Source: Prochlorococcus sp. AG-363-C20
Lineage (GTDB): Bacteria > Cyanobacteriota > Cyanobacteriia > PCC-6307 > Cyanobiaceae
DNA length: 64,000 nt
NCBI GenBank assembly: GCA_003280295.1
Contig: QCFI01000002.1
Coordinates: 1-64,000, forward strand
Direction: 5' to 3'
Part shown: positions 25,415-31,274 of the stretch, piece after piece
How the letters are laid out: each line of letters starts with the position of its first letter
Numbering within the stretch: position 1 is the first letter of the stretch
Notes under the pieces: generated by a model
Seen by the model: only the letters and a program-made list of their open reading frames with translations
Database searches by the model: none
Told to the model about the DNA's origin: nothing
Made by a program: the position numbers and the translations under genes

Positions 25415-25422
25415 GTAAAAAG

Positions 25423-25494
25423 CTCCCCGGGCGGGATTCGAACCTGCGACCAATCGATTAACAGTCGACCGCTCTACCGCTGAGCTACCGAGGA
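25423..25494 (-). tRNA. trnN: tRNA-Asn(GTT)
   Basis: Reverse strand TCCTCGGTAGCTCAGCGGTAGAGCGGTCGACTGTTAATCGATTGGTCGCAGGTTCGAATCCCGCCCGGGGAG folds as a cloverleaf: 7-bp acceptor TCCTCGG/CCGGGGA, anticodon loop CTGTTAA, GGTTCGAATCC T-arm. Confidence 0.96.
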
Positions 25495-26496: not shown

Positions 26497-26648
26497 AAAG
26501 AAATCTAAAAGCACACATTCATTCTTACCAATGAATGGCCACCTCTGCTTCTTTCAATCTCTTTGTCAAAGCTGATCACACTCACTGGATTTCAGTTAGG
26601 CTTTTTGAGCTTTGGCAATAGCGGTGTGACCTTGTTAATTCTTTAATA

Positions 26649-26840
26649 ATGGTCGAATGCATCGTGAATTGTCCTTATCCCCAAAGGAGGAGGTGTCCAT
26701 GGTTGAAAGTTGTATGAATCAGGGTCTGCTGATCGCGGAGAACGCCGACTGATTTCGGCAACTGTCCCTTGATCAAACGGTTCCGAGACATAGCGGACCC
26801 GGCGAGAGCCCCTGCCCCTAATAAGGGCAGGGGCATTGTT
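26649..26840 (+). ncRNA. Candidate structured small RNA, family not assigned
   Basis: Locally GC-rich intergenic stretch; AT-rich -10-like box (ttaataat) at its 5' edge; 9-bp long-range stem GGGTCTGCT (26722-26730)/AGCGGACCC (26792-26800, one G-T pair); internal hairpin GCCGA-ctgatt-TCGGC; ends in a strong terminator hairpin. Confidence 0.6.
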
Positions 26841-26841
26841 T
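26808..26841 (+). terminator. Rho-independent terminator
   Basis: GCCCCTGCCC-ctaataa-GGGCAGGGGC perfect 10-bp GC-rich stem followed by attgttt. Confidence 0.85.
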
Positions 26842-26896
26842 CAAATAGCCGCCAAAGAAAACAATTAAATCTAACTCTTTTTAAAAACTAAAAGCG

Positions 26897-28441
26897 TCAA
26901 TCAATTAATTCATTAATAGGAATAAAGTAGGTGCTGTTAGTTGTAGAATTGCAAATTAAAAAATCATTATTTTTGCATATAATATTATCAAGAAAATTTT
27001 GAGAATCTTTATGATTTAATCTTACATAACTTTCCGCCCAATTTAAACTCCCAACAAGATGAGTAGCGCCTTTACCTGCCCAGTATTTGATAGTCGTTTG
27101 GTTAACATCTTTTATTGAGGTCAACCAACCTTGTCGTCTGGACAAGTTAAGGAAAGTAGGGTCCATACCTGTCACAGAAACTATCCTGGATTCGGGCTTA
27201 ACTTCATTACGAACTCTAGTTGCCAAGGGCATCCAAATTTTAGATTGTGTCTTCTCTACTAAAAAATAATCAAATGTAAGTATAGTGATGCTAATCGTAC
27301 TTATCAGTAAAAGTATAATTGATAATATCAACTTATTCATTCTAAAAGAGTGAATAAGTTGATGCAAACACTTCCAACCTCGACCCATTAAGGGACACAA
27401 GAAAAGCTGAAGAGGTAATTGATAATACTCATGAATAGAACTTGACCCCATGAAAAATATAGTAGTTAAAAGCATGCCAATTAAGCCTGCCCATAAAATT
27501 TGGCCAACTGATTTTTTATAACAATCCCATAAGCCTAAAATAACTAAAGGAAAACCAATTATTGCCATATTTCTCAGAATAATTCTAAGAAATAAATTCA
27601 ACCAAACCTTTATATTCATTAACATATCTAATCTGATCCTATCAGAATTATCTTCCCATGTTAAGAAGCTAAGTCCACTCTCTTGCCCAAGAGAATATGC
27701 ATATTTAAACCAAATAAATGTAATAATAATTGCTGTAGAGCCATAAAGAAAAGGCCCAATTGATTTAAAGATAATAGAGAACCTTCTAAAAATTTCTTTA
27801 AAAGTTAGCGGCTCGTTAATGTCCTCACTATATAGCTGCGCAACAATAAAAGGTATCCCAAGCCATACAATAGGAAGCAACTTTATCAAGCATGCAACGC
27901 AAAAAGAAATCCAACTCAAAAAAAGTGAGGTTCGATTTCTACCTTTTCCCCAAACTAGTAAGCGTTCAATACTCAATGCAGAGGCAAGTATTAACAGTGA
28001 CTCTGCCTGAAATGCACGACCATAATATACATTTAGTGGGAGCAAAGCAAAAAACAATCCGCCCCACCATCCACTCGCCTGATCAAAAATTAAACTTCCT
28101 ATTCTAATTACTAATAAAATAGTAATTAGGCTAAAGAAGATAGAAAGTGACCGACCAATCCATTCATGAATACCAAAAATCTTATACAATTGACCTACTA
28201 TGTATGGAAAGATTGGAAATTCACATTCCACATACCCTTTACTTGCGCCAGCCCAATCAATTTGAGGCAGCCAAATTGGAGAATTTTCTAACGCAAAATG
28301 CCTCGCCATTGCTGCAGTATCTGCTTGGCGCCAACTATGTACTCCTACAATAGGAGCTTGTATATTTATCAGTCGAAAAATTAGTCCTATACAAATTGGA
28401 AACCAAATCGAATATGAAGATGAAATATGTTCCTTTTTCAT
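26897..28441 (-). CDS. Polytopic membrane glycosyltransferase (GT39/ArnT-like)
   Basis: 514 aa, many TM helices; GVHSWRQADTAAMARHFALE...YVECEFPIFPYIVGQLYKIFG N-terminal pattern of dolichyl-phosphate-dependent transferases. Confidence 0.75.
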   Translation of the reverse strand: MKKEHISSSYSIWFPICIGLIFRLINIQAPIVGVHSWRQADTAAMARHFALENSPIWLPQIDWAGASKGYVECEFPIFPYIVGQLYKIFGIHEWIGRSLSIFFSLITILLVIRIGSLIFDQASGWWGGLFFALLPLNVYYGRAFQAESLLILASALSIERLLVWGKGRNRTSLFLSWISFCVACLIKLLPIVWLGIPFIVAQLYSEDINEPLTFKEIFRRFSIIFKSIGPFLYGSTAIIITFIWFKYAYSLGQESGLSFLTWEDNSDRIRLDMLMNIKVWLNLFLRIILRNMAIIGFPLVILGLWDCYKKSVGQILWAGLIGMLLTTIFFMGSSSIHEYYQLPLQLFLCPLMGRGWKCLHQLIHSFRMNKLILSIILLLISTISITILTFDYFLVEKTQSKIWMPLATRVRNEVKPESRIVSVTGMDPTFLNLSRRQGWLTSIKDVNQTTIKYWAGKGATHLVGSLNWAESYVRLNHKDSQNFLDNIICKNNDFLICNSTTNSTYFIPINELID

Positions 28442-28444
28442 AAG

Positions 28445-29551
28445 TCAAGGTGTATTCCAAACGAAACGAGAAGAAGCTGCATAATTCCATATAAACGCAA
28501 CAAATATTCCTGCAAGCTGAGCCCAAAATGTACTGGAAGAAACAGAGTTATAAAAGGCAGTTGCAAGTCCAACATTAGCCAATACAGGCAAAGAGCTAAC
28601 CAAAAGAAATTTCAACAGTCCTTTTAATAGAAATAAATTGTGCAGCCTTTGCGCTCTAAATGTAAGCAAATTATTCATTAAATAGTTAAAAGTTACCACA
28701 AGCAATACAGATATTGGCAATGCTTTCTCAAAAACCAAAGTAAAGATATTCATCAAGAAATATGTTGTCGTCAGTTGCAAAAAAGCCCCTGTTGAGCCTA
28801 CCAAACCAAAGCTAATGGCTCGCCGAGGTAATATTCGAAAAGAAAGTGTATGAATAAATGAGATCAAAAAGTCCCATACAATAGCTAAATCAAGTTTCGA
28901 AGTCCCATGCAAACGAGGCTGAAAAGTCAGTGGAACTTCGGAAATGCTCAACTTCCCACTGCTAACAGCAAGTAATTCATAGAAAAACTTAAATCCATTA
29001 ACATCTACTCTGCGTATATTTGTAAAGCAAGAATTTAAATTAACTACAAAACAACCACTCATATAATCAGTTAAATGGGTGTACTGCTTAGGCAGACTTA
29101 ATCGAGAAAGTCGATTGGCCCATATTGAACTGCCAGTTCTGTGATGACTCAAGCCTCTAATCTTGGCTTCGCTAAGGAATCTACTTCCAACAACAATATC
29201 CAGATTATTATCTTTTAAATGTCTAACAGCATTAATTACATCCAAAGGCTCATGCTGACCATCACTATCCATGACAGCTGCCAAATCAGCAGTCGAATCG
29301 AGCAAGCCTTCCTTAATAGCGCTAGAGAGTCCTGATCTACCTAATCGACGTATCAATCTTATTCTTTTATCTTGTCGTGCCAATTTCTTAACAAGTTCGG
29401 CAGTCCCATCTGTTGAATCATCATCAACTATCAGTATTTCAAGGTCAAATTCTCCACCTATGGATACGAGTTTCTGAAGTAATGGTTCAATATTCTCTCG
29501 CTCGTTGTAAGTAGGAAGAACAACCGAAAGGCGTTCTTGCATTAATGCCAT
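28445..29551 (-). CDS. GT2 polyprenol-phosphate glycosyltransferase fused to GtrA-like membrane domain
   Basis: VVLPTYNERENIEPLLQKL...LEILIVDDDSTDGTAELV...AVMDSDGQHEP dolichol-P-mannose synthase core, then GtrA-like four-TM region. Confidence 0.88.
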   Translation of the reverse strand: MALMQERLSVVLPTYNERENIEPLLQKLVSIGGEFDLEILIVDDDSTDGTAELVKKLARQDKRIRLIRRLGRSGLSSAIKEGLLDSTADLAAVMDSDGQHEPLDVINAVRHLKDNNLDIVVGSRFLSEAKIRGLSHHRTGSSIWANRLSRLSLPKQYTHLTDYMSGCFVVNLNSCFTNIRRVDVNGFKFFYELLAVSSGKLSISEVPLTFQPRLHGTSKLDLAIVWDFLISFIHTLSFRILPRRAISFGLVGSTGAFLQLTTTYFLMNIFTLVFEKALPISVLLVVTFNYLMNNLLTFRAQRLHNLFLLKGLLKFLLVSSLPVLANVGLATAFYNSVSSSTFWAQLAGIFVAFIWNYAASSRFVWNTP

Positions 29552-29600
29552 TTAAATAAATTAGTAAAAAGGGAAATTAATTTTTTCAAAAAATTGAACT

Positions 29601-31274
29601 TTATTTGTTCTGACAGAAGACTAAGGCCCATTCACCATCTTTTTGAACTACTTTACAGTCTTTTTCAAAAGCCAAGCTACTGAGGCGTTTTGTATTTCTG
29701 GTCAAAAGCCATCCAGAATTGGGAAATTTATGAATGGTCTTTATTTTTTTTCCTGCATACCAATCGAGACTGGGACGTTCATAACTGCCTTCAATAAAGA
29801 CCTCAGACCCTTTTGCAGTTAATGCCATTTGAGCTACAGGTCTGACCAACCAATTCTCATTTAACTCCCATAACCAAAAACTTGATCTCATAAGAATACA
29901 AAGAGCTAAAAAACTGCCCCCTATAAGAGCCAAAAATCCAATCGCTCTTTGTTCTGTTAATGAGCTTGTTAATAACCACCCTCCTATCGTCCAACCAAAT
30001 CCAGAGGCAAATAAAATTGAAGTATAAGGTAGCAAAACTGGGGCAAATCCAAAGCTTCCAAATATTCCTAATCCGATCAGCCCAAGCCCAATACTTAACC
30101 ATAAATATGGAACACTCAATAGCAACAATTTTCCTGGATATTTACTAACCCCATCCCGTTTAATTAACCAAGCTAAAGGTCTCGCACATATCAAAGAAAA
30201 AGGAAGCCAAAGCGGATGGCTATACCAAGGAAGTTGAGTTTTAAGAGGAAGTATTGACAAAGCAATGACTAACTGTGTTCCTAAAGCCCATTTCCCCCAT
30301 CGGGTGTGCCTGTCCTGCCAAGCCCATAACATTCCTAAAGGCCAAAGCAATAACCATGGCCAACCTCCCTCAAAAACTTCAATTAAAGGTACTAAGAAAC
30401 CTAGATCACTTCCTTCTCCAGCATCAAAAAGCACTCGAGTTGCTCCATCAGCGCCCCAAAGCCAAAGTGCATTGCTTCCTCTCTGCACTCCATGCCATAT
30501 ATGCCATGAGATTCCTGGAACAAGTCCCACGGCAAAAGGGATTAATAATGAAACACGCCAAAGCTTTTGATTTTTTTCAAACAGTATTGGAAGCGCAGCA
30601 GCGGTAATTGCAGGCAAAAGTACAGGAGCTTTTAACAAAAGCAAAAAGCTACTTGCAATTCCTGCCCCAAATGCTCTTAATTTGTCAATAGAGCTATTAT
30701 CTATAGATACAAGAAACAGCCAAAAAAGAGCAATTACGCTCAATTGCGTTCCATCCAACATGGCCAGTTTCCCATGCCTGGCCAATGGCAAAAGAGTTAG
30801 CAAAATTGCAGCAGTTGAAATACTTAAAGTTGTATCTCTAGGTCTTAAATACCAATTAATCAGTCCTCCTAATGGAACAACCAAAGTTGATAACAAGGCA
30901 GGTGCTAATCGCACCACAAAATCAGAGGGCAACTTCTCCAAGTAATCTCTTCCGTGATTACTTAATTGCATAACTAGCGCAATCATCCAATGAAGTCCTG
31001 GTGCCTTATTTAAGTAGTCAGAGTCCCACAAAGTTGGCAATAATTTATCTAGTCCTTGTTTTTGACTTAGCTCAAAAGCAACTCGTGCCACAGTAGCCTC
31101 ATCAAAATCCCTTAAAGGCAGATCACCTAAGCCAATCAAAGACAATCCACATGCCAACAACCAAATCAGCATTAATCCCAAAAAAGGGGCTTTACTAATT
31201 GATGAACGGTAACTAGCCAATAACACATTCCATTGCTGTTTATTCTTCATAAGAAGAAAATATCTAAGTACCAA
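29601..31274 (-). CDS. ArnT-like membrane glycosyltransferase
   Basis: 557 aa; LGDLPLRDFDEATVARVAFEL...YLNKAPGLHWMIALVMQL motif; start could instead be the internal Met (MKNKQQWN) at 31250. Confidence 0.8.
   Translation of the reverse strand: MVLRYFLLMKNKQQWNVLLASYRSSISKAPFLGLMLIWLLACGLSLIGLGDLPLRDFDEATVARVAFELSQKQGLDKLLPTLWDSDYLNKAPGLHWMIALVMQLSNHGRDYLEKLPSDFVVRLAPALLSTLVVPLGGLINWYLRPRDTTLSISTAAILLTLLPLARHGKLAMLDGTQLSVIALFWLFLVSIDNSSIDKLRAFGAGIASSFLLLLKAPVLLPAITAAALPILFEKNQKLWRVSLLIPFAVGLVPGISWHIWHGVQRGSNALWLWGADGATRVLFDAGEGSDLGFLVPLIEVFEGGWPWLLLWPLGMLWAWQDRHTRWGKWALGTQLVIALSILPLKTQLPWYSHPLWLPFSLICARPLAWLIKRDGVSKYPGKLLLLSVPYLWLSIGLGLIGLGIFGSFGFAPVLLPYTSILFASGFGWTIGGWLLTSSLTEQRAIGFLALIGGSFLALCILMRSSFWLWELNENWLVRPVAQMALTAKGSEVFIEGSYERPSLDWYAGKKIKTIHKFPNSGWLLTRNTKRLSSLAFEKDCKVVQKDGEWALVFCQNK

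Follow-up and report, generated by a model that had tools for sequence, protein, structure and literature searches.

Bacterial dual-function RNAs, such as S. aureus RNAIII and SgrS, are structured regulatory RNAs that also hold a short open reading frame (ORF). In cyanobacteria, ncl0160 is an RNA of Synechocystis PCC 6803 that was reportedly described by Mitschke et al. 2011. The passages on ncl0160 in Brenes-Alvarez et al. 2016 (PMC4734099) report homologues in 83 cyanobacteria, the survey having excluded marine Prochlorococcus and Synechococcus; these homologues have a conserved ORF of 23-25 amino acids with ATG or GTG starts, a ribosome-binding site and TAA (47), TAG (34) or TGA (2) stops, and translation of the ORF is suggested there. 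In the literature searched, no further paper names ncl0160, and the peptide strings searched for were not found in print. Two other kinds of RNA are close in organism or layout, namely the Downstream-peptide RNAs (including Yfr6; RF01704), which precede ORFs of 17-100 amino acids, and Yfr103 of Prochlorococcus MIT9313 and marine Synechococcus, described as 290-328 nt long with seven paralogues in CC9605.

Here we analysed a 64,000-nucleotide stretch of the genome of Prochlorococcus sp. AG-363-C20 (the window), in which the initial annotation had placed a small structured RNA of no recognizable class at 26649-26841. Like ncl0160, this element belongs to a set of small RNAs spread across cyanobacteria, with a Shine-Dalgarno (SD) sequence, an ATG or GTG start, three types of stop codon and, in the distant homologues, an ORF of 23-25 codons. 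In the window variant SD, start and stop are retained, but the ORF has 17 codons, helix P6 is shortened and a new paired 5′ domain is present. By these matching features, rather than by the sequence of ncl0160 itself, the pan-cyanobacterial family is very probably ncl0160, and the window element very probably an already known RNA in a shortened version to which a new 5′ domain has been added.

For the element, Rfam 15 gave no match at the curated threshold, and the matches at E up to 10 were at chance level, far below the family cut-offs. Like the Downstream-peptide/Yfr6 RNAs, the element has its structured part ahead of an ORF of very few codons, occurs in marine picocyanobacteria and has a similar transcript length, but it differs from them in sequence and fold; neither RF01704 nor RF01739 (the glnA glutamine riboswitch) was matched by cmscan at E up to 10. 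6S RNA (Yfr7/SsaA, RF00013) is also of similar size, stand-alone and pan-cyanobacterial, but has a different fold, and the window element contains an ORF; RF00013 did not match at the element, and the 6S RNA of the source genome (G000) lies elsewhere, at G000:C4:82191-82373. The two-piece cyanobacterial tmRNA (RF01851) also stands alone and contains a short reading frame. At the element, however, the test against RF00023 and RF01851 gave a sub-threshold 12.7 bits against 47 and ARAGORN found no tmRNA, the genome's own two-piece tmRNA being at G000:C2:109778-110060. Yfr103 is likewise a conserved structured RNA of marine picocyanobacteria, but the element, at a predicted ~233 nt and nearly always in single copy, differs from its published description in length and copy number. 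Finally, it resembles RNAIII and SgrS in its combination of structure and ORF, but in this case half of the conserved fold is made up by the ORF.

Fold and reading frame of the element

Conservation counts for the window element are based on an alignment of 71 picocyanobacterial homologues, in which the conserved block extends from ~26597 to 26841 on the + strand (Table 1). As annotated, the element is rich in G+C (0.51-0.55 at 26650-26849, against 0.20-0.43 in the immediate flanks), and its + strand is more stable than shuffled sequences (z -3.5; 0/200 as stable). Judged from the alignment, the RNA starts upstream of 26649, the annotated start being about 40 nt too late: the "-10 box" placed there lies inside a hypervariable hairpin, whereas a conserved TA...T box is located farther upstream. 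This TA...T box is probably the -10 box, and G26609, 6 nt 3′ of it and kept in 67/71 homologues, the probable transcription start (+1); when scanned for promoters, the element yielded none of the sigma-70 consensus type with a -35. A promoter-like motif is also present 5′ of the element in 75/115 distant cyanobacterial loci. Such upstream motifs argue for an independent transcript, which would begin at its own promoter at ~26609 and end at the P7 terminator. G-U pairs occur often within the helices and A-C mismatches seldom, which identifies the + strand as the structured, functional one; a 53-amino-acid antisense ORF was considered and found unsupported.

Table 1. Features of the element, in positions of the window
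Feature	Position	Strand	Evidence or remark
-10 promoter box (probable), TAGGCT, consensus TAnnnT	26597..26602	+	T, A, T kept in 66-67/71 homologues
Predicted transcript, ~233 nt	26609..26841	+	putative ends: conserved G (5′), terminator (3′)
5′ structured domain	26614..26673	+	P1 + P2 + P3, covariation-supported
P1	26614-26619/26668-26673	+	helix of 5′ domain
P2	26621-26626/26660-26665	+	helix of 5′ domain
P3	26628-26631/26651-26654	+	helix of 5′ domain; hairpin tip variable
Asymmetric internal loop of 5′ domain	U26627 opposite GAAUG 26655-26659	+	bases nearly invariant
Shine-Dalgarno AGGAGGAGGTG	26685..26695	+	near-invariant in 71 homologues
17-codon ORF MVESCMNQGLLIAENAD, then stop	26699..26752	+	start, length, stop kept in 70/71 homologues
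P4 (annotated 9-bp helix)	26722-26730/26792-26800	+	5′ strand = ORF codons 8-11
P5	26734-26740/26781-26787	+	5′ strand inside codons 12-14
P6 hairpin	26744-26747/26756-26759	+	ORF stop codon in loop
P7 terminator, whole	26801..26841	+	terminator scan and covariation
P7 outer helix	26801-26805/26836-26840	+	separated from inner stem by GA/A internal loop
P7 inner stem	26808-26817/26825-26834	+	10 bp, terminator scan

Three features had been missed by the initial annotation: the 5′ domain, the SD and the ORF. In the homologue alignment, 94.4% of the cells in P1-P3 are paired and 14/16 pairs show compensatory changes (174 cells), values reached by 0/500 shuffles; shifting the partner strand by one column lowers the pairing to 34-40%. 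A covariance model of the 5′ domain has a single match in the source genome, before this RNA, and thus no occurrence of the kind expected of a riboswitch aptamer placed before several genes. In other genomes the model matches only within the same genome family, bar one weak match, and the domain sits only before this RNA. On these searches, the 5′ domain is a lineage-specific picocyanobacterial addition to the RNA family.

The 9-bp long-range helix, the GCCG/CGGC hairpin and the 10-bp terminator-like hairpin of the initial annotation reappear in the alignment as P4, P6 and the inner stem of P7, respectively. P4 is conserved, with 95.6% of cells paired and compensatory change in three pairs, and the same helix is present in distant cyanobacteria. 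P5 is paired in 96.4% of cells and has three compensatory pairs; in the distant homologues, 8/9 of its pairs are compensatory. P6 is present in roughly three out of four homologues (~75% of cells paired) and is longer in the distant ones. For P7 the figures are 97.8% paired and compensatory change in 7/14 pairs; the 3′ end of the transcript forms the P7 outer helix with GGCGA, which accounts for its being conserved and not a plain T run. Jointly, P4-P7 have 94.5% of cells paired and compensatory change in 15/34 pairs (0/500 shuffles). The TCCTT/AAGGA hairpin, which had been annotated alongside these helices, is intact in just 2/51 homologues. As P4-P6 and the terminator hairpin have no overlap, a transcription switch is not evident.

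On their 5′ side, P4, P5 and P6 are built from codons of the ORF, whose consensus is M-S-x-S-C-x-x-Q/K-G-L-L-I-A-E-N/K-A-x. Its start is ATG in 38 and GTG in 32 homologues, and its stop TGA in 63, TAA in 5 and TAG in 2; such exchange of start and stop codons at constant positions argues for translation. The sole picocyanobacterial homologue with a shortened ORF (10 codons; locus L012) retains the RNA core. pN/pS comes to 0.78 over codons 2-8 and to 1.23 over codons 9-17, which points to weak constraint on the amino acids of the ORF; these values are biased, however, by base pairing, which restrains third positions, and the residues S4, G9 and E14 are nearly invariant. As far as these comparisons go, selection preserves the fold and the frame, with its start, fixed length and stop, far more than the amino acids. 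By inspection, picocyanobacteria have not retained the start-codon hairpin CCCATG/CATGGG seen with the longer ORF, and a second ORF 3′ of the first was weighed by eye and dropped.

Covariation among homologues had been named in the initial annotation as a check on its RNA claim, and it came out in favour, paired columns being conserved and compensatory changes occurring in both the 5′ domain and the 3′ fold. The functional structured RNA that it postulated is accordingly strongly backed by conservation and covariation, but not with the proposed start, nor with all of its helices; "small functional RNA" without coding is an incomplete description, given the conserved 17-codon ORF.

Distribution and genomic neighbourhood

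BLAST matched the element in 122/201 genomes of the family to which the source genome belongs, nearly always in single copy, and by these comparisons it is conserved far beyond chance. A covariance model of the 3′ domain built on picocyanobacteria (R2) also matched genomes from cyanobacterial families other than that of the source, E being as low as 1e-11. Conversely, a model built without any picocyanobacterial sequence (R3) has matches in 113/292 genomes of the phylum; its match in the source genome is exactly 26668-26800 (E 1.2e-5). The matches of R2 and R3 are thus reciprocal between picocyanobacteria and other cyanobacteria, and P4-P5-P6 is common to both; in the distant homologues, 11/25 pairs of this fold show compensatory change (0/500 shuffles). 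These homologues carry the SD AAAGGAGGTGATG or a sequence near it, and most have a terminator with CTA/TAG flanks. Their ORF usually has 23 codons, with the consensus M-I/T-E/D-S-S-K-x-M-G-H/L-Q/L-V-x-x-S-R-L-C-A-G-A-V-L (113 ORFs of 23, two of 24 and one of 25 codons), and ends in TAA (77), TAG (38) or TGA (1). An ORF of 17 codons, with the stop at codon 18, also occurs outside the source family, at loci L130 and L273-L276. A pattern scan of named genomes returned only cyanobacteria, including Nostoc, Planktothrix, Microcoleus, Fischerella and Spirulina. Outside the class there were three weak matches, which were taken as chance, L288 and L289 lacking the family features. A 20-nt core of the element was not matched exactly in any viral contig. 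Collectively, these searches show that the element is not an orphan but the representative, in picocyanobacteria, of an RNA family that is pan-cyanobacterial and single-copy.

Within the source family, the RNA was not found in small complete genomes (1.6-1.9 Mb), namely G017, G061, G077, G099 and genus g18, and some streamlined lineages may be able to do without it. Genome G056 (locus L055) has two copies ~5 kb apart, at C1:2018485-2018639 and 2023819-2023972, the second of which has diverged.

The C-terminus of psbD, a photosystem II gene, is encoded directly 5′ of the element on the same strand in 80/116 distant loci, and the distance from the end of psbD to the element is 148-1054 nt, mostly 150-350. 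Among the picocyanobacterial loci, psbD is upstream on the same strand in 33/71, 20 of them within 700 nt, these counts being approximate, because for a few rows a longer, near-identical locus in a different genome was read. The presence of this synteny with both forms supports common descent of the short and long RNAs. In the window, the 1.6 kb searched upstream contained no psbD; the neighbours are genes for an ABC transporter ATPase, a small conserved protein and a convergent membrane protein. Downstream genes vary among genomes (porin-like, glycosyltransferase-like and others).

Several further observations concern these surroundings. A tRNA-Asn gene (anticodon gtt) lies at 25422-25494 (-) between genes for an RpaA-like response regulator and the ABC transporter ATPase, both named by eye. 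Three large ORFs (514, 368 and 557 amino acids) occupy 26897-31274 (-), convergent to the RNA; by eye they are membrane protein- and glycosyltransferase-like, and similar genes flank the RNA in some relatives. Many draft contigs stop 200-450 nt 5′ of the element, within psbD (L032, L036, L183, L198 and others). At such contig ends psbD is probably duplicated, breaking the assemblies.

Proposed translation gating and competing explanations

Because frame and fold are kept and amino acids much less so, we propose, with moderate confidence, that the element is a stand-alone dual-function or translation-gated RNA of the ncl0160 type, whose main effector would be the RNA rather than the peptide. 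The strongly initiated micro-ORF would supply the 5′ strands of the P4-P5-P6 fold; a translating ribosome would have to open this fold, and the idle RNA could close again. Passage of ribosomes would thereby act as a gate that sets the RNA to closed or open, and initiation at the nearby SD may be tuned by the lineage-specific 5′ domain. We infer translation and gating, and likewise any target that the RNA might have. A translation-gated RNA would account at once for an invariant frame of set length, for a fold made from the ORF and for amino acids that are only loosely kept.

The main rival is a functional micropeptide, of 17 amino acids here and 23-25 elsewhere, for which the RNA would be the mRNA and the fold would set mRNA stability only. 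The very strong SD and the conserved ORF, the well conserved S4, G9 and E14 and RLCAGAVL of the long form, and the translation suggested in the ncl0160 passages of Brenes-Alvarez et al. 2016 (PMC4734099) all fit such a peptide. Nevertheless, pN/pS is ~0.6-1.2, the C-terminal RLCAGAVL is missing from the 17-codon forms (picocyanobacteria, L130 and L273-L276), and compensatory changes in the helices alter amino acids, so that we regard the micropeptide as somewhat unlikely, though to be taken seriously. We are doubtful of a further reading, in which the element is a previously undescribed free-standing RNA whose fold is switched by translation of a micro-ORF of set length, and not by the peptide, while a picocyanobacterial domain sensing a ligand or protein controls initiation.

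Next among the rivals is a leader in which the 5′ domain would bind a ligand or a protein and thereby control translation of the micro-ORF. Strong covariation and invariant internal-loop bases just 5′ of the SD are in line with it, and the Downstream-peptide RNAs with their short ORFs offer a precedent. Riboswitches usually recur before several genes, however, and this domain is confined to one family and to the position before this RNA, with no Rfam riboswitch match; we therefore consider a controlled leader unlikely. The frequent proximity of psbD could alternatively mean that the element is part of the psbD 3′ UTR and controls psbD mRNA, but this is very unlikely in view of the promoter-like motifs of the distant loci, the conserved -10 box of picocyanobacteria and the 1.6 kb searched upstream of the window element, where psbD was not found. 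An attenuator or leader of the adjacent downstream gene, suggested by a leader-peptide-like ORF followed by a terminator, is hardly credible and largely refuted by the variable downstream neighbours, the next gene in the window being convergent and no antiterminator overlapping P7 having been found by inspection.

Picocyanobacteria are the most abundant phototrophs. The RNA analysed here is ancient and cyanobacteria-wide, with a conserved fold around a micro-ORF; it lacks an Rfam entry and often lies beside psbD. Its picocyanobacterial form, short, divergent and rich in covariation, separates what is kept (frame, length and fold) from what is hardly kept (many of the residues). The link with psbD, together with the absence of the RNA from some small complete genomes, makes a role in photosynthesis or in translation control testable.
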